From IMG/VR virus record IMGVR_UViG_3300043409_000787, positions 1-36,559 of that record: DNA of 36,559 nt; one strand, given 5' to 3'. This DNA is from a virus. Numbering within the stretch: the stretch's first letter is position 1; every line of letters begins with the position of its first letter. The position numbers and the translations under genes were made by a program. Below the pieces are notes generated by a model. The model was not told the DNA's origin, ran no database searches, and saw nothing but the letters and a program-made list of their open reading frames with translations. This document shows positions 5,830 through 22,515 of the stretch, in pieces.

Positions 5830-7172
5830 GCTTTCAGTTCCTCTAGGGCTATGTCCGAGATCGCGCGCTTGTCGCGCAGGGCGGACCAGATCCGTTCGTC
5901 GATAGTCTTATTACAAAGCAGCAGGTAACACCAGACCGGCTGCGTCTGCCCGCCCCGGTGCAGGCGTCCGACCGTCTGCTCGTACAGCTCCAGCGACCAC
6001 GGCAGCGACACGAACACGATCTTGTTGCCGCCGTGTTGCAGATTGAGACCGTGGCCGGCAGACTTGGGGTGGATCAGCAGCAACTCGATCTGGCCCGCGT
6101 TCCAGCGTTCGATGGCGCGGGCGTCGTCAATCGTCTGGGCGTGCGGGAACCGGCGGCGCAACTCGGCCAACTCCTCCTTGTAGTTGTAGACGACGATGGT
6201 GTTGGCCCGCTGGTTCTCGTCCAGCAGCTCGGCCAGCCGGTCAAACTTGTGGCCGCTGATCCAGATCGCGCGCTTGTCCACGTCGAACTTGCCCGGCCTG
6301 TCGCTGGCGGTTGAGGTGCTGTGGTAAACGAACCCGGACGCCATCTGTTGCAGCTTGCTCGTCACGGCGGCCGCGTTGGCCGCAACGACCTGCGCCGATC
6401 CCAGCTCCAGCATCAAGTCGCGCTTCATGACGTTGTAGGGCTTGATGTCGGCCATGTCGCACGCCAGCTCGACCGTGTGGAGCGGCGGCAACTTGTCGGC
6501 GTAGACGCCCGGCTCCAGCACGAACGTGGCGGGCTTGATCGTCGCCATGATCTGCTCCAGCGATCCCTTGCGTGGCGACCACTCGCCAAAGTCGCGGTTG
6601 ATGCAGACGAAGTAGCGTTGCAGGAACGCGCCCTTGGACCGGCCCAGCAGCTTCTGGTCCACGATCTTGCACTGCCCGAACACGTCCTCCAGACCGTTGG
6701 ACGTGAACGACCCGGTCAAGCCCCAACGGTAGCGCACGCCCTTGAGAAGCTTCTCCAGCGCCTTGAACCGCTTCCCGCTGGGGTTCTTGACGCGCGTCAG
6801 CTCGTCGAACACCACGCCGTCGAAGCGGGCCATGTCGGCATCCGTCAGCGTCTGGATGTTGTCGTAGTTCATCACGACCACCTCCGCGTCGGACGCCAGC
6901 GCCGCCGCCCGCTGTGCCGGTGTGCCGACCGCCAGCGCCATCGTCAGCCTTGGCCCCCACTTGGGCCGCTCAACCGGCCACACGTCGGTGCAGACCCGCT
7001 TGGGCGCTAGGATCAGCCACCGCCGGGCGTAGCCGTCCGACACCGCCGCCGCCAGCGCCGTGAGCGTGATGGCGGTCTTGCCCGCGCCGACCGGCGCGAG
7101 GATCATGGCGGTGTCGTGCTCGAACAGGAAGTCTGCCGCGTCGTCTTGGTACGGTCTAAGGCGCAGCGTCAA
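5826..7172 (-). CDS. SNF2-like DEAD-box DNA helicase
   Basis: The 448-residue superfamily 2 ATPase has a Q-motif-like start (L-R-P-Y-Q-D-D-A). Walker A is P-V-G-A-G-K-T at about residues 27-33. Motif II is D-E-L-T at about 123-126, followed by R-V-K-N as in SNF2 proteins. Motif III is G-L-T-G-S at about 151-155. Motif VI near residue 405 reads Q-T-V-G-R-L-H-R-G-G-Q. It lacks the large inserts of chromatin remodellers, so it is the compact phage type. Such proteins are thought to translocate on DNA and to aid replication or recombination. The start overlaps the methyltransferase 3' end by 17 bases; the stop overlaps the 67-residue gene by 4. Domain assignment is firm, the precise role is not. 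Confidence 0.92.
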   Translation of the reverse strand: MTLRLRPYQDDAADFLFEHDTAMILAPVGAGKTAITLTALAAAVSDGYARRWLILAPKRVCTDVWPVERPKWGPRLTMALAVGTPAQRAAALASDAEVVVMNYDNIQTLTDADMARFDGVVFDELTRVKNPSGKRFKALEKLLKGVRYRWGLTGSFTSNGLEDVFGQCKIVDQKLLGRSKGAFLQRYFVCINRDFGEWSPRKGSLEQIMATIKPATFVLEPGVYADKLPPLHTVELACDMADIKPYNVMKRDLMLELGSAQVVAANAAAVTSKLQQMASGFVYHSTSTASDRPGKFDVDKRAIWISGHKFDRLAELLDENQRANTIVVYNYKEELAELRRRFPHAQTIDDARAIERWNAGQIELLLIHPKSAGHGLNLQHGGNKIVFVSLPWSLELYEQTVGRLHRGGQTQPVWCYLLLCNKTIDERIWSALRDKRAISDIALEELKA

Positions 7173-8223
7173 GGTACGCTCCTATGACTTCTGCCGCGAC
7201 TTGCGGGACGATGGCATTGCCGTAGGCGCGCAGGCGTCCCACTCTGGCGGGAACCCCATGAGCCAAGAGACAAACGCCGGATTTAACGCGCCTCGATTTT
7301 CCGTCTGCTCCGATGGCCCATTCCACACCGTCCGACCAAGCAGACCGTTCGTCTCCACGTTCGCGCAGAACGATCCGTCCTTGTGATCCCGACTCGTCGG
7401 CGTCGGCCACAAGTGAACCGCTTGCTTCAACGCCAGCCCACCCTGACGCCCCGGCGGTATCTTGTCGCCCGTGCCCTCGTTCGCGCGCGGAGTCGGCCAC
7501 ATCGAAATCGCCGCCGCCCATCCGAGCTTGTTCGGCGTTGTCCGACCGTCCCCCGAACAGGTCAGGTTCGTATCGTTCCCGGCGTGCGCCGATGTCGGCG
7601 TCGGCCACATTCCCTTGGCCACCTGTGAGAGATCGATCTGGATCTTCTTGCCGTTGTGATAGGGCGTGTTGCCCCGCCACTCGTCCGCGTGGGCTATTGA
7701 CCGGCCGCCATTGGGCAACGTTGGCGTTGGCCACAAACCACAGTCGATCTCTTCGGTGGGGCGCATTGACGGCACAAGCCGGAACAACGACCGCCCCGCA
7801 GGCGTAGCCGATGCCTTCCAAGTCAGTAGACACTCCGTCGAGCCAGTCCTTGCCAACCGCTGCCGCAACTTGTTCTCCCATGACGACAGGGGGCCGACAG
7901 GCTCTAATGAGGCCGAAGAAGACGGGCCAGAGGTGGCGCTCGTCCGCCGTGCCCTTTTGCTGACCGGCGGTGCTGAAGGGCTGGCAGGGGGCGCTTCCGG
8001 TCCACAGGGGCCGCTCGTCGGGCCATCCGGCGAGGCGGGCGGCAAGGCTCCAGCCGCCGATACCGGCAAAGAAGTGGCATTGTGTGAAACCGCGCAAGTC
8101 CGCAGAATCCACGTCAAGAATGGATCGCTCATCAACTTCCCCTTTGGCTATCAGACCTTTGTCTATGAGGTTACGCAGCCAATGGGCGGCGTAAGGCTCC
8201 ATCTCGTTGTAATACGCGCTCAC
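7156..8223 (-). CDS. DNA (cytosine-5)-methyltransferase
   Basis: This 355-residue Dcm-type enzyme shows motif I F-A-G-I-G-G at about residues 52-57. The catalytic motif IV is P-C-Q-P-F-S with Cys80. Motif VI is a variant G-E-Q-V at about 116-119, motif VIII is R-R-D-R-L-W-F-V near 158, and motif X is Y-G-N-A-I-V-P-Q near the C-terminus. Between motifs VIII and X lies a target-recognition stretch with several 'VANAN/VADAD/VADSA' segments. I chose GTG at 8223 because it overlaps the nuclease stop as GTGA and has GGGAG just upstream; another GTG lies at 8244. The enzyme probably modifies phage DNA against host restriction. No partner restriction gene is seen. A second long frame overlaps it. Confidence 0.92.
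   Translation of the reverse strand: MSAYYNEMEPYAAHWLRNLIDKGLIAKGEVDERSILDVDSADLRGFTQCHFFAGIGGWSLAARLAGWPDERPLWTGSAPCQPFSTAGQQKGTADERHLWPVFFGLIRACRPPVVMGEQVAAAVGKDWLDGVSTDLEGIGYACGAVVVPACAVNAPHRRDRLWFVANANVAQWRPVNSPRGRVAGQHALSQRQEDPDRSLTGGQGNVADADIGARRERYEPDLFGGRSDNAEQARMGGGDFDVADSARERGHGRQDTAGASGWAGVEASGSLVADADESGSQGRIVLRERGDERSAWSDGVEWAIGADGKSRRVKSGVCLLAHGVPARVGRLRAYGNAIVPQVAAEVIGAYLDAAP
7182..8132 (-). CDS. Possible overprinted protein with WPTPT repeats, inside the methyltransferase gene
   Basis: This frame is shifted by +1 relative to the methyltransferase and stays open for 316 residues. It has an ATG at 8132 preceded by AGGGGAAG. The translation is not random-looking: it holds at least four W-P-T-P-T/R segments, a T-W-K-A-S-A-T-P-A-G-R-S segment, and the ending L-N-P-A-F-V-S-W-L-M-G-F-P-P-E-W-D. 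From memory, proteins with this organisation occur in many prophages, annotated as hypothetical or as methylase fragments. Each W-P-T-P-T lies on the same DNA that encodes V-A-D-A-D in the methyltransferase frame. It could be a true second protein or a by-product of codon choice in a conserved methyltransferase. Translation is unproven. Confidence 0.45.
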   Translation of the reverse strand: MSDPFLTWILRTCAVSHNATSLPVSAAGALPPASPDGPTSGPCGPEAPPASPSAPPVSKRARRTSATSGPSSSASLEPVGPLSSWENKLRQRLARTGSTECLLTWKASATPAGRSLFRLVPSMRPTEEIDCGLWPTPTLPNGGRSIAHADEWRGNTPYHNGKKIQIDLSQVAKGMWPTPTSAHAGNDTNLTCSGDGRTTPNKLGWAAAISMWPTPRANEGTGDKIPPGRQGGLALKQAVHLWPTPTSRDHKDGSFCANVETNGLLGRTVWNGPSEQTENRGALNPAFVSWLMGFPPEWDACAPTAMPSSRKSRQKS

Positions 8224-8498
8224 AAGCCCGTCTCCCGCGCCCACTCGTTAATCTCTTCGCGCGACCACAGGCAGGCGTAGTCCTGCCCCAGCGCCAGCAT
8301 GTCAGCGGCAAACTTCGTCTGGAGCGGTGCCAGCCGCCCGCCCTTCTTCTTCAGCTCCACGAACCACGTCTGGCCGTTGGGCAGGCACGCCACTTGGTCC
8401 GACACGCCGCGCAGCGTGGGCGACTTGAACTTGTACGTCCGCCCGCCCATGCGGGCGACCGTCCAGATGAAATACGCCTCGATTTCTTTCTCAAGCAT
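8220..8498 (-). CDS. VRR-NUC domain nuclease
   Basis: Starting at the ATG at 8498, which has GGGAG upstream, gives 92 residues, the usual size of stand-alone phage VRR-NUC proteins. Key features are an N-terminal E-x-x-I-E helix, G-V-S-D-Q-V at about residues 31-36, and F-V-E-L-K-K-K-G-G at about 46-54. These supply the Asp and E-x-K residues of a PD-(D/E)XK nuclease; R-L-x-P-L-Q-x-x-F follows. Such enzymes cut branched DNA during replication or recombination. The frame stays open far upstream toward 8756, but that part is antisense to the DUF2800 gene and I exclude it. It is the first gene of the leftward operon and faces the replication operon. Confidence 0.88.
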   Translation of the reverse strand: MLEKEIEAYFIWTVARMGGRTYKFKSPTLRGVSDQVACLPNGQTWFVELKKKGGRLAPLQTKFAADMLALGQDYACLWSREEINEWARETGL

Positions 8499-16488: not shown

Positions 16489-16702
16489 CTGTCTTCTCCC
16501 CTTCAAGCGCGGCGTCGGCTTCGTCGCGAAAAAAACCCCAATTTCCGTCTGCGTCTGTGTCGTGCTCTGCAATCGCCCGCAGCGCCGCGTCCTTGCGGGC
16601 GATCTCGGCCCGCAGCCGGTCAATCTCGTCCTTCATGCTGTCTCTCCCGTTCTTCGCGCCGTACATGTAGACGAGCGTCAGGTCGTCCAGATCCTCGATC
16701 AT
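16481..16702 (-). CDS. Small coiled-coil protein with YMYGAKNG motif
   Basis: The 73-residue product starts M-I-E-D-L-D-D-L-T-L-V-Y-M-Y-G-A-K-N-G, which I recall from small phage proteins. A D-E-I-D-R-L-R-A-E-I coiled-coil core and an A-L-E-G-E-K-T-D-A tail follow. Core and tail resemble the three paralogues downstream. The start is fixed by an ATGA overlap with the preceding gene. The function is unknown. Confidence 0.7.
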   Translation of the reverse strand: MIEDLDDLTLVYMYGAKNGRDSMKDEIDRLRAEIARKDAALRAIAEHDTDADGNWGFFRDEADAALEGEKTDA

Positions 16703-17031
16703 ATCTCGCCCCTTGCTTTCTTTGCTCGATAGTACTCCAACGCCCTAGCGCGCTTGCGCACGGCGCTCTCGAATTGCCGTCCGTCAAGCCAGGCATCCAG
16801 CGACTGCACGCCATGCCAGACCGTCGTCGGGTCGCGCCCGCCAGACCATGCGCCAAGCTGCGGGTAGGACACCAGCAGGCTATCGCGCGCTCGCCACCAT
16901 GCGAGGTGCCGGGCGGTGCTGGCGGCATGGACGCGTGACCGGCCATCGAACGTCGCCGTGTCGATCAGGCACTCAGCGCACGCCTCGCGCTTGAGCCGCT
17001 CGAACGCCGCCCGCGTCGCGTGCGGTCTCAC
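16699..17031 (-). CDS. DnaA domain IV-like DNA-binding protein
   Basis: This 110-residue basic protein resembles the C-terminal DNA-binding domain of DnaA. An R-S-R-V-x-x-A-S-T-A-R-H-L-A-W-W helix is followed by S-Y-P-Q-L-G-A-W-S-G-G-R-D-P-T-T-V-W-H-G-V. This parallels the DnaA signature, in which G-G-R-D-H-T-T-V recognises DnaA boxes; here the His is Pro. There is no AAA+ domain, so it cannot initiate alone. It could bind phage repeats or compete at host DnaA boxes. The GTG start overlaps the upstream stop as GTGA, and the stop overlaps the next ATG as ATGA. Confidence 0.75.
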   Translation of the reverse strand: MRPHATRAAFERLKREACAECLIDTATFDGRSRVHAASTARHLAWWRARDSLLVSYPQLGAWSGGRDPTTVWHGVQSLDAWLDGRQFESAVRKRARALEYYRAKKARGEI

Positions 17032-17450
17032 GCTGCGGCCGCGCCGTTGACGAGCGTCACCGTCACATCCCCGGCCCCATAGCGCGGCGCAGCCATCGCC
17101 GCCTCCAGCTCCGCCAGCGCCTCGGTTGCGGCCCGCTCGGCATGGCGTGCGCCACAGGCCCGCACGTACAGCGTCGCGTATCCCGCGATGTCATGCGCGT
17201 GGTCGTCATAGTCCACATCGCCAGCCATAATTCTGGCGGTCTTTGCGAGCCAGGCTTCGCACGCCTCGCGCTGCGCGTCGGACATGCGCCGGTAGCCTGT
17301 CGAGTTGCGCAGGATCTCCTTCATGAGTTGCGCGTACGCCGCCACGTCGGCGAAGTCGCCGTGCGTCGCCTCGCGGTCAGCCAAGGTCTGTTCGATCGTC
17401 TGCGGCGCGTCCTGCGCCAGTGGGTGTGCTTTATGCTTGTGCTTGCTCAT
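17028..17450 (-). CDS. DUF6378-like phage protein
   Basis: The 140-residue protein has a His/Lys-rich start, then L-A-D-R-E-A-T-H-G-D-F-A-D-V-A, then an all-helical part with Q-R-E-A-C-E-A-W-L-A-K-T-A-R-I. D-V-D-Y-D-D-H-A-H-D-I-A-G-Y-A follows. This layout matches a widespread phage family (DUF6378) that resembles all-alpha nucleotide pyrophosphatases in its acidic helices, although no activity is established. It overlaps the preceding gene by 20 bases. The Ala-rich C-terminus is probably disordered. Confidence 0.75.
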   Translation of the reverse strand: MSKHKHKAHPLAQDAPQTIEQTLADREATHGDFADVAAYAQLMKEILRNSTGYRRMSDAQREACEAWLAKTARIMAGDVDYDDHAHDIAGYATLYVRACGARHAERAATEALAELEAAMAAPRYGAGDVTVTLVNGAAAA

Positions 17451-17991
17451 CTGTCGTCCCCCATCGTCTGATGTAATACATGATCGTGCTATGGTCCCGG
17501 CCGCAAGCCTTGCCGATCGCGGTGTAGCTCCACCCCAACGCCAGCAGGCGGCGATACACCTCCAAGCGCGGCCGCAGGTGCGCAGCGCCCGGAGACCGGC
17601 CTACCAGCACGAGCCAGGTCGTCTTGTGCGCGGCTGTGATGTCCGCGCACAGCTCAGCGAGCTGCTCCTGCGTCAGCCGGTAGCTTGCCATGCGGGCGTC
17701 CATGCGGGCGCGCCGCGCGGCCTTGTCCGACAGCTTGGCCGCGCGGGCTTGGACGTGTGGCAACGCGGCGTGCTCGGCCCGCGTGAGCTTGATCCACGCG
17801 GTGTCGGTCTTATACAGCACGGGCGGATCTGCCGGCGGCGCTGGTGCCGGTGCTGGTGCCAGTGCCGGTGCCGGTGCCGGTGCCAGTGCCGGTGCCGGTG
17901 CCGGTGCCGCGCCGGGGCGTGGCCGCCCTGTCGCGATCCGCGCCTTAACGGCCGCGTAGTGCGCCGCCCACTGGTGTCGGGCGTCGGTCAT
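17431..17991 (-). CDS. DNA-binding protein with Ala-Pro linker and DnaA-like C-terminal helix-turn-helix
   Basis: In this 186-residue protein, residues about 1-25 form a basic helix and about 26-56 are an Ala-Pro repeat linker. The middle is helical and Arg/Ala-rich, and about residues 145-178 read L-x-L-G-W-S-Y-T-A-I-G-K-A-C-G-R-D-H-S-T-I-x-Y-Y. The G-R-D-H-S-T-I segment copies the recognition-helix signature of DnaA domain IV. It is the second such gene in this operon. The linker is encoded by a hexanucleotide repeat and so may vary in length between isolates. The ATG overlaps the previous stop (ATGA). A replication or regulatory role is inferred. Confidence 0.7.
   Translation of the reverse strand: MTDARHQWAAHYAAVKARIATGRPRPGAAPAPAPALAPAPAPALAPAPAPAPPADPPVLYKTDTAWIKLTRAEHAALPHVQARAAKLSDKAARRARMDARMASYRLTQEQLAELCADITAAHKTTWLVLVGRSPGAAHLRPRLEVYRRLLALGWSYTAIGKACGRDHSTIMYYIRRWGTTDEQAQA
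17841..17910. repeat. Hexanucleotide repeat encoding the Ala-Pro linker
   Basis: About eleven in-frame copies of a GGTGCC-type hexamer (variants GGTGCT, AGTGCC) lie head to tail. Slippage would add or remove Ala-Pro pairs without breaking the frame. Confidence 0.85.
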
Positions 17992-18937: not shown

Positions 18938-19591
18938 TCAGGCGGCGGCCGCGTCGGCTACGGGCGCCGCGTCCGGCCATGCGGCCATCGGCGCGCTCGC
19001 CCAGCTGTGATACGTGGCGTCCGTCCGGTCACGTATCGGCATCAGCACGCCAATAGCCTGAAAGCCGGTCCCGTACGCGAAGTCAACAACCGCCGGAGAT
19101 CCGCCATTGTAGCGCACGATTGGACTGGTGGTGCGGTCGCCGCCAAGCTCTTTACGGGCCTTGGCGAAGTCGGCCAGATAGATCGGGTCGTACTGCGCAG
19201 GCTTGCCATCAAGGTCGGTCGGCATCACGCGCCGGTAGTCCGGGAAGTTGCCATCGACACGCGCGCCGCCGTACGATTCGCCAGCATGTTCGAACGTCAA
19301 CTTGCCGTCGTCGCCAATCGTGAGCGTCGTTTCGTCCAAGGTCTTGAGTTTGACCTTGAGCTTGGCCACCAGATCGCGCGGCACGATCACTGACGCGTGG
19401 GCGCCCGTGGCCGCGTGCTCGCCGTAGGGCTGGCGTAGCACAATCATGCGGTGACCGTCCGTCGCGGCCATGACGACGCCGTCCGGTGTAAATTCCAAGT
19501 TGATGCCGTTCAGGTAGTAGCGTGTTTCCTCGGTCGAGACCGCGACCAGGACGGCGCGCAAGGCGCGGATATTGAGTGTGACCTTAAGCAT
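18938..19591 (-). CDS. Short DNA sliding clamp-like protein (DnaN family)
   Basis: The 217-residue product carries beta-clamp landmarks: R-Y-Y-L-N-G-I-N-L-E-F near residues 24-34, A-T-D-G-H-R-M at about 43-49, and I-V-P-R-D-L near 69-74. F-P-D-Y-R-R-V-M-P follows at about 116-124, and a late G-V-L-M-P-I-R resembles the clamp C-terminus. Bacterial clamps have three domains and about 370 residues; this one has room for two, so it probably forms a higher-order ring or is a specialised clamp. It would tether the phage polymerase or replace the host clamp. GGGGAGAAC precedes the ATG. The C-terminal 25 residues are Ala-rich and look disordered. Confidence 0.8.
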   Translation of the reverse strand: MLKVTLNIRALRAVLVAVSTEETRYYLNGINLEFTPDGVVMAATDGHRMIVLRQPYGEHAATGAHASVIVPRDLVAKLKVKLKTLDETTLTIGDDGKLTFEHAGESYGGARVDGNFPDYRRVMPTDLDGKPAQYDPIYLADFAKARKELGGDRTTSPIVRYNGGSPAVVDFAYGTGFQAIGVLMPIRDRTDATYHSWASAPMAAWPDAAPVADAAAA

Positions 19592-19961: not shown

Positions 19962-20744
19962 TTACGCCGCCAGTGCGGCCGGAGCGAAGCGGCGCGCCGT
20001 AGCGCCATGGGCCATGATTGCGATGTTCGCGCGGGCCTTGGCGCTTGTGCCGCCACAGGCCTTGCAGCTAGCGCAATTCGTCTTGACGCCAGCTTCCTTG
20101 GACGCGGGGCACATTATCTCTTTGGCCAAGAGCGGCGCATCGGCCGCGCGCACGCGGAAGGTACGCCAACCGGCCGCGCGTGCTTCCAGATAGTCGGCGC
20201 CGCTATCGCATGAAGCCATGCATAGCGCCTTGAACTCAGGAAACGCGCGCCATTGGTGCGAATAGCCGTTGCGCGCGGCCGCGCGGCTTGTAGCGTGTTG
20301 CCAGATCTGGAACGGTGCGGCCGCTGGATCTCCGTACGCTCCGAGACGGACCGTAGCGCCGTCGAATAGTTCTGGCAGGATTGCCGCGTCAAAGTCGACG
20401 CCAGGGCGTGCGTAGCGGCCGCGCACGTACGCGCCATATACCGCCATGACGGATCGGCCAACGTTGACATAGCAGGAACCATTGTTTGCTGGCCGATGCT
20501 GGCAATCACCGCATACGCTGGCGTCGGCGCCGCTCTTGAGCGCGTCCAAGGGCGTCACGTCGGCGCGAATAATGAAAGTCTGAACCATGGCGCCCGTTTT
20601 CGCATTCGTTGACGCGGCCGTGATACGATTCGCGATCACGACAATCGGCGCGCCATCGATCATCGATGGCCCTTCGTAAAGCACGACGCCGGTAAAGGCC
20701 TTGCGGCGTAGCGCCTTGGACATGTCCGATGCTGATTTGATCAT
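19962..20744 (-). CDS. Conserved phage protein, DUF7227 / gp88-like, Cys-rich
   Basis: The 260-residue protein shows landmarks of a phage/plasmid family I know as DUF7227 or gene product 88-like. These are L-Y-E-G-P-S-M-I-D-G-A-P-I-V-V-I-A near the N-terminus, G-A-D-A-S-V-C-G-D-C, C-Y-V-N-V-G, then V-R-L-G-A-Y-G-D-P-A-A-A-P. G-W-R-T-F-R-V-R and a C-terminal Cys cluster (C-P-A-S-K-E-A-G, N-C-A-S-C-K-A-C) follow. Several cysteines probably bind metal. Family members are widespread and have no established activity. AAAGGAC lies before the ATG. As one of the first genes after the early promoter, it may act in host takeover or replication, which is inference. Confidence 0.7.
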   Translation of the reverse strand: MIKSASDMSKALRRKAFTGVVLYEGPSMIDGAPIVVIANRITAASTNAKTGAMVQTFIIRADVTPLDALKSGADASVCGDCQHRPANNGSCYVNVGRSVMAVYGAYVRGRYARPGVDFDAAILPELFDGATVRLGAYGDPAAAPFQIWQHATSRAAARNGYSHQWRAFPEFKALCMASCDSGADYLEARAAGWRTFRVRAADAPLLAKEIMCPASKEAGVKTNCASCKACGGTSAKARANIAIMAHGATARRFAPAALAA

Positions 20745-21300: not shown

Positions 21301-21329
21301 GTGTCTGTCTCCCGTTTGCCTATGAACAG

Positions 21330-21358
21330 AATATGCGCCTGCGCTGCGCCCTTGTCAA
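21330..21358 (-). promoter_or_regulatory. Strong leftward early promoter
   Basis: On the minus strand a consensus TTGACA (21353-21358) lies exactly 17 bases from CATATT (21330-21335). Transcription would begin near 21322 and lead into the first early gene. It is the best sigma70-type promoter I found in the window. Confidence 0.75.
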
Positions 21359-21458
21359 GCGATCTTTTACAAGATTGTGCGAAAAAGTTTTTGGGTCATT
21401 TGCGTAGGTCGTTTGGGTCATGCTTAGGCATTGCAAATGGTCATGCGTGACCCAACGC

Positions 21459-21644
21459 TAAGTGCCTGTTTTCGCTCCCATTGTCGAGGGCGATAGGTAT
21501 TATTGTCATTGTTTTATGTTAAGTTAGAAAAGTTATAATATAGGTATATATTCCTATATAATATATATACAGAACTGAGGTTACCCTGAAAGCATGACCC
21601 AAATGACCAATAACCCTCTTTAATTCCGCGCAATCAGGCACTTA
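21459..21644. repeat. Distant inverted repeat flanking the AT-rich block
   Basis: TAAGTGCCTG at 21459-21468 and its exact complement CAGGCACTTA at 21635-21644 flank the AT-rich core almost symmetrically. A CGC triplet adjoins each arm, offset by one base on the right. It suggests a protein-bound bracketing site. Confidence 0.6.
21538..21559. other. AT-rich palindrome, possible DNA unwinding element
   Basis: ATATAGG (21538-21544) pairs with CCTATAT (21553-21559) around an 8-base loop. It lies inside a run from about 21490 to 21572 that is nearly all A and T, in a genome otherwise GC-rich. Confidence 0.6.
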
Positions 21645-21844
21645 CGCGTATTTTGCAATTGCCAATGTCATGACCCATGCACTACCCAAGCCATGACCCA
21701 AGCTTTTCCGCCCTCTACGCCAGCGCCGCCAGGCCGCGCACAATGTGCGACCCGCTTGGCAATGACAATACTGCCAATGATTGTTTGGGTCATTTGGGCA
21801 ACGCAAAAACAGATTGCCCAAATTGCCAATGCCATAACGCAATA

Positions 21845-21873
21845 GTTCACATGTAAACTGTTCACATGTAAAC
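21845..21873. repeat. Two tandem copies of a 14-base near-palindrome
   Basis: GTTCACATGTAAAC occurs at 21845-21858 and again at 21860-21873, a 15-base period. Each copy is almost its own complement around ACATGT, as expected for a dimeric regulator binding two adjacent sites on the same face or nearly so. Confidence 0.75.
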
Positions 21874-21877
21874 CATT

Positions 21878-21920
21878 TGCTGCACTGCACAATGCTGCAC
21901 TGCACAATGCTGCACTGCGG
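21878..21920. repeat. 15-base tandem repeat, 2.7 copies
   Basis: TGCTGCACTGCACAA occurs at 21878-21892 and 21893-21907, and a third copy matches for its first 11 bases from 21908. Period and position continue the 15-base spacing of the preceding repeat. Confidence 0.85.
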
Positions 21921-22005
21921 CATGGCGGGGGGGGAGGCCCCGACCGCGCCGGTCATCGGTCACGAAGGGTTTGCACAAACTTTTTTTTTAATTTAAAAAT
22001 AACGG

Positions 22006-22515
22006 ATGACCTGGCACTCCATTCCTCACGAACCGCGCAAACTGACCGCGACCGAGGCGCGGCTGGACGCAATCTATGACGCCGCCCGTCGTGGGCTTAA
22101 AGGCGATACGCTCGCCTTGGCGTCCGGCTTGCTGCCTACCGAGTACCGGCAACTCTGCCAATTCGACCCGCTCGCGGAGCTAGCCGAACTCAAGGGGCGC
22201 GCGGATGGCGAGATGGAGCTGTCGGGCCTCCTGCATGACGCCGCCCGTGGCGGGGACGCAAAGGCGGCGCTTGAGATCCTGAAGCACGTCCACGGCTGGG
22301 TCGCGAAGCAGCAGATCAGCGTGGATGTCGAGCAGCGCATCAGCATCACTGCTGCGTTGCAGGAAGCTAGCTCTCGCGTCATCAATGGATTTGTGATAGA
22401 TGATGCGGAGGCCGTAGACGCTGTAACGTCTTACGGCCCCCTAACGCACCAGATAGGAGCTGGCGGCTATGACGCAAATTACACAGAGCGAATTGATACG
22501 TCTAGTGACGTATGA
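22006..22515 (+). CDS. Terminase small subunit
   Basis: The 169-residue protein precedes the large terminase with one gene inserted. Residues about 14-60 read as a helix-turn-helix-like domain (A-T-E-A-R-L-D-A-I-Y-D-A-A, L-A-L-A-S-G-L). A helical oligomerisation region follows, with A-R-G-G-D-A-K-A-A-L-E-I-L-K-H-V-H-G-W, a pattern common in phage small terminases. It recognises phage DNA and loads the packaging motor. The last 47 bases overlap the HNH gene in another frame, so the C-terminal tail may have been altered by that insertion. Assignment rests on position and layout. Confidence 0.75.
   Translation: MTWHSIPHEPRKLTATEARLDAIYDAARRGLKGDTLALASGLLPTEYRQLCQFDPLAELAELKGRADGEMELSGLLHDAARGGDAKAALEILKHVHGWVAKQQISVDVEQRISITAALQEASSRVINGFVIDDAEAVDAVTSYGPLTHQIGAGGYDANYTERIDTSSDV

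Follow-up and report, generated by a model that had tools for sequence, protein, structure and literature searches.

What function could be served by a 705-bp stretch without genes, lodged between two divergent operons of a podovirus genome? The question arises from IMG/VR virus record IMGVR_UViG_3300043409_000787 (36,559 bp, analyzed in full and hereafter called the window), relatives of which include MW202483.1 and OR003940.1, and in which a sequence-only reading had singled out positions 21301–22005 as a candidate replication origin with iterons and an AT-rich melting site. From the sequence comparisons presented here, we lean toward reading this gap as an oriC-like podovirus replication origin, formed by a DnaA-box-type array with diverged boxes.

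Genomic Context of the Gap

The gap indeed holds no credible gene, and it does separate the leftward early operon (from ~21.3 to 14.9 kb) from the rightward packaging genes (terS then terL, from 22.0 kb), the two operons diverging on either side. A 104-aa antisense ORF (21642–21956) is not credible as a gene, since it crosses boxes and tandem repeats and its region carries insertions and deletions in close relatives. At 8.4–14.7 kb, rightward genes encode a DUF2800/PD-(D/E)XK nuclease-like protein, polymerase A, and a primase-helicase. Among bacterial assemblies, the closest TerL relatives lie on contigs assigned by binning, perhaps wrongly, to Rhodoferax and other proteobacteria; Rfam and tRNA searches returned no matches. 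The beta-clamp-like gene of the leftward operon (table 1) shares this operon with two genes for DnaA domain-IV proteins, which echoes the dnaA–dnaN neighborhood of bacterial oriC. Adjoining the array, 19962–20744 (minus strand) encodes a 260-aa cysteine-containing protein of unknown function (phrog_2554), with relatives in some related phages, not all. On the minus strand elsewhere in the window, a 362-aa frame with a C5 cytosine methyltransferase match (7156–8244) and a 317-aa frame (7182–8135) overlap, possibly through a frameshift or an overprinted gene.

A Box Array around an AT-Rich Core

Positions 21391–21830 very probably form an array of DnaA-box-type sites (table 1). At least five exact repeats in both orientations had been noted in the gap, and five exact copies of TTGGGTCAT were found (three on the plus strand, two on the minus strand), all within 21391–21793, when 0.22 would be expected in the whole window; with no further copy in the window, this 9-mer is not common genome-wide. 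Its extent had been under-described, in that the exact copies are part of a degenerate box, [AG][TC][TG][GA]CC[CA]A, with 15 sites in 21392–21829. In the 9-mer form A[TC][TG][GA]CC[CA]A[AT], 12 sites compare with 0.41 expected (maximum 4 in 1,000 shuffles of the region), and three exact tandem pairs occur at 9-bp spacing. No canonical DnaA box, strict or loose (TTWTNCACA/YWRTCCACA), is present in the window.

The AT-rich palindromic core was recovered, with 86% AT over 50 bp beside the boxes, as expected of the AT-rich element of an oriC. The distant inverted repeat said to surround it exists, but not as an exact one: there are two pairs, the main one of 19 nt (95%; 21407–21425/21590–21608) and a second one (88%), neither exact over its full length. 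In the relative L087, both arms of the second repeat are altered together, to TAAGTGCTTG/CAAGCACTTA, as read from the alignment.

Table 1. Features of the gap and associated genes, in window coordinates.
Feature	Position	Strand	Remarks
Protein A, 110 aa, standalone DnaA domain-IV-like	16699–17031	-	PF08299 37.2 bits, cut-off 31.5
Protein B, 186 aa, C-terminal DnaA domain-IV-like	17431–17991	-	PF08299 sub-threshold alone
Beta-clamp-like protein	18938–19591	-	Leftward operon; PF02767 8e-18
Sigma-70-like promoter, leftward early operon	21330–21358	-	TTGACA, 17 nt, CATATT
Box ATGACCCAA	21391–21399	-	Exact copy and degenerate pattern
Box ATGACCCAA	21413–21421	-	Exact copy and degenerate pattern
Box GTGACCCAA	21447–21455	+	Degenerate pattern
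Second inverted repeat, flanking core	21459–21475/21628–21644		88%; arms TAAGTGCCTG/CAGGCACTTA
AT-rich palindromic core, candidate unwinding element	about 21515–21575		Alignable in L087 and L006
Tandem box pair ATGACCCAA + ATGACCAAT	21594–21611	+	9-bp spacing (21594/21603)
Box ATTGCCAAT	21658–21666	+	Degenerate pattern
Box ATGACCCAT	21670–21678	+	Degenerate pattern
Box ACTACCCAA	21681–21689	+	Degenerate pattern
Box ATGACCCAA	21693–21701	+	Exact copy and degenerate pattern
Box ATTGCCAA	21756–21763	-	Degenerate pattern
Box ACTGCCAAT	21770–21778	+	Degenerate pattern
Tandem box pair ATGACCCAA and GTTGCCCAA	21785–21802	-	9-bp spacing (21785/21794)
Tandem box pair ATTGCCCAA + ATTGCCAAT	21813–21830	+	9-bp spacing (21813/21822)
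Near-palindrome GTTCACATGTAAAC, two copies	21845–21873		15-bp period; separate operator-like element
TGCTGCACTGCACAA tandem repeat	21878–21918		15-bp period; 2.7 copies
Small terminase subunit (terS)	22006–22515	+	Right-hand neighbor of array; named by position and OR003940.1

Box Arrays at the Same Place in Related Phages

We compared the DNA upstream of terS in about 100 distinct relatives, counting words in place of an EM motif search, which was drawn to base composition. Many related phages carry box arrays near an AT-rich core at this place, and most relatives show one or two over-represented 8-mers there; the location is thus shared, but the box sequence differs by lineage. Once aligned by hand, the lineage words have a common prefix (ATTG, ATGA, ACTG, ACTA, or ATTA) and lineage-specific suffixes (CCCA, CCTAG, CCGA, CCCTA, CTAA, CCAT, CCAA, and TCCACA), the last of which defines one clade whose word is the canonical DnaA box TT[AG]TCCACA. 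A cluster of canonical boxes, as found in oriC and absent from the window, exists in five of these sister arrays, counted in long records (copies in the region/elsewhere in the record: L120 9/0, L143 5/2, L140 5/1, L100 4/1, and L145 3/0), and a contig binned as Rhodoferax holds 10 copies. Both the TTA and the TTG forms of the canonical box occur in sister arrays, and L118 has a mixed array in which TTGTCCACA and TGACCCACA alternate in tandem.

Boxes on the same strand most often lie 9 bp apart (110 pairs), a peak that both the diverged and the canonical groups show. Of 532 boxes, 412 are oriented away from the AT core, with a majority so oriented in 55 of 63 loci; these counts ignore relatedness and use box patterns picked after viewing the first set of loci. 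New loci, of which 33 lineages were left after removal of near-duplicates, served as a held-out check. The top-word test, fixed beforehand, gave no more than a weakly positive result, with 10 of 30 significant top words matching the prefix pattern against a background of 16% (p 0.018), and this weakness is largely due to another word, CACTAACTTAG, which dominates one clade. In these held-out loci, T[TG][AG][CT]CCACA was present in 25 of 28 regions, with 101 copies against ~2 expected from flanking DNA.

Between close relatives, the boxes switch. In the alignment, equivalent positions read TGACCCA in the window, L087, and L006, and TTGCC[A/C]A in L009 and L086, the window itself being a mosaic of both forms. 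Across this switch, the early -35 hexamer is conserved, as is the terS leader where it is present in the aligned pieces. Such a change suggests that the array as a whole has a trans-acting reader. A search for an early gene whose sharing would explain the switch in close relatives found none, Pfam yielding no more than a MarR-like protein, encoded by a single phage with diverged boxes.

Phage-Encoded Domain-IV Proteins as Candidate Readers

The leftward operon encodes two proteins, A and B (table 1), which are standalone domain-IV proteins, not DnaA. The family profile of A matches DnaA chains 8btg (1e-12) and 1j1v (1.6e-10), and that of B matches DnaA chain 3pvp (6.6e-8); designed helical proteins also rank high for the B profile, but as repeats of which no single stretch is significant. 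DnaA structures are the top Foldseek matches of the AlphaFold models (pLDDT 91 for A, 83 for B), among them domain IV bound to DnaA-box DNA; the probability is 1.00, but the E-values are only 1e-3 to 3e-2. Profile and fold thus both indicate domain IV, the box-binding domain, in A and B, for which DNA binding is predicted. The likeness to DnaA domain IV on a DnaA box (1j1v, 3pvp) extends to a GRD[HP][ST]T motif; unlike DnaA, A and B stand alone without the AAA+ ATPase (neither matches domain III, for which 110 and 186 aa are too short), and in A a proline replaces the histidine of GRDHTT. A literature search of openly accessible papers, such that prior work may exist, returned nothing direct on phage-encoded DnaA domain-IV proteins at phage origins.

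Across 42 related records, which may be fragments and whose groups are phylogenetically clustered, PF08299 was detected in 16. No PF08299 domain-IV gene was found in the canonical-box records, themselves possibly fragments, and none was detected in five diverged-box phages (L121, L131, L107, L016, and L046), where another reader or an unusual host DnaA would be needed. A repeat search of 20 relatives with profile A1, run without a positive control, gave no match.

Whether the array is read by the phage's own A and B is, in our view, a matter of slightly less than even chance. A one-to-one covariation of boxes with A/B contact residues fails at the TGACCCA/TTGCC[CA]A switch, as the DNA-binding domains of A and B in L009 are practically the same as those of the window and L087, though the first half of the box differs. 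A DnaA-like reader therefore fits only if variation at the first box positions is tolerated. In this regard, published DnaA boxes vary most at positions 1–3, as in epsilonproteobacterial boxes, and DnaA contacts bases through a basic loop (R399 in Escherichia coli), helix 4, and helix 5 (PMC5043019). If A or B accepted both TGACCCAA and TTGCCCAA, reading by these proteins would be reconciled with the box switch.

A Putative Origin and Its Rivals

Judging from its oriC-like anatomy and from the canonical boxes of sister arrays, the site probably functions as a replication origin. The architecture that the sequence-only reading had proposed is supported by the concentration of the boxes, the AT-rich core, the conserved location in relatives, and the canonical sister arrays, but a diverged DnaA-box-type array fits better than a wholly unknown set of iterons. 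To these lines of evidence for an oriC-like origin can be added the shared prefix, the mixed array, the 9-bp spacing, the box orientation, the held-out loci, and domain IV in A and B. Against it stand the lack of a canonical box in the window, box switching despite nearly identical A/B DNA-binding domains, the diverged-box phages without a detectable domain-IV gene, and the weak top-word test. Cumulative GC skew in 20 genomes, which had been suggested as a check, shows no consistent extreme at the site, and neither supports nor excludes origin function.

With bacterial oriC, the gap shares 9-mer boxes clustered close to an AT-rich element, the first box positions being the most variable, and its phage sisters hold exact TT[AG]TCCACA boxes; it differs from oriC in that its own boxes are diverged, none being canonical, that the phage has no full DnaA gene, and that the origin is a putative one. 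Iteron origins of plasmids and lambdoid phages likewise have short repeats adjoining an AT-rich stretch, but those of the window flank the core in both orientations and do not form a single direct array. Among the window proteins scanned against Pfam, there was no recognized Rep or O initiator, the primase-helicase having a weak RepB_primase match.

The main rival of the origin reading, which we hold to be improbable, is a transcription control region. On that view, A, B, or another regulator would use the boxes as operators or activator sites to control the divergent early and packaging operons, and the AT core would be promoter DNA. DnaA-type proteins in bacteria regulate transcription as well, the array sits between divergent operons, and promoter-like sites occur in and near it. 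However, the early promoter, which is conserved, is not part of the array, the nearest box being ~30 bp upstream of its -35 hexamer, and simple operator control would hardly need ~15 boxes spread over 440 bp to the left and right of a melted-type core. Somewhat less probable still is an iteron origin for an unrelated initiator, be it the C-terminal winged-helix-like domain of the primase-helicase or an unidentified phage or host protein, with a likeness to DnaA boxes that would be due to convergence. Such an initiator would suit the diverged-box phages without a domain-IV gene, and nearly every family genome examined encodes the primase-helicase, but the exact canonical boxes in TTA and TTG forms of sister arrays, together with the mixed array of L118, favor a DnaA-type reader, and the C-terminal primase domain, when compared by eye, does not sort by box type. 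Very improbable, finally, is a role in packaging, in which the small terminase subunit would read the array as a pac site. The array does abut terS in many lineages, and the TerS helix-turn-helix has a very weak resemblance to the domain-IV profile, but this helix-turn-helix is nearly identical between phages with different boxes (L086/L087, L061/L075, and L047/L040), such that box specificity does not follow the DNA-binding residues of TerS.

If the gap is an oriC-like origin, box-bound proteins would assemble on both arms flanking the core, the AT core would melt, and the phage polymerase A, primase-helicase, and clamp-like protein would start at the melted core. Host DnaA would bind the boxes in the canonical-box clade, when in the window's clade A and B, alone or with host DnaA, would most likely read the diverged ones. 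A bolder and rather unlikely extension is that of a privatized oriC. In that case, host DnaA would originally have read the origin, whose boxes then drifted apart by lineage and came to be recognized by standalone domain-IV proteins of the phages; phage replication would thereby have become partly free of host DnaA, and the boxes would change together across the array between close relatives. In bacteria, the specificity of DnaA boxes is strongly conserved, which makes its evolution hard to study. Here, a natural series at one genomic place, from canonical through mixed to strongly diverged boxes, in phages of which some encode DnaA-type DNA-binding proteins and others do not, makes a change of initiator specificity directly testable. 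The same holds for the question of whether an origin can be served by the DNA-binding domain of DnaA when its ATPase is missing.

Other Signals and Repeats near the Array

The early promoter has 10 of 12 consensus matches, a signal weak on its own, as three such sites were found when 1.2 occur in shuffles; its TTGACA is kept in four relatives in the alignment. Both tandem repeats of 15-base period that had been described were found (table 1). The copy number of TGCTGCACTGCACAA varies among close relatives, from 2.7 in the window to ~4 in L009 (1–240) and none in L087 and L006. Palindromic repeats of the GTTTACAT/GTTTACGT type are present in ~8 copies upstream of terS in L002, L060, and L080, and, together with GTTCACATGTAAAC, resemble an operator family of their own. 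Another repeated word, CACTAACTTAG/CTAAGTTAGTG, is found upstream of terS in L294–L297, L304–L306, L312–L314, L326, L331, and L339, where it has ~10 copies next to the DnaA-like boxes and is almost absent from the rest of the locus.
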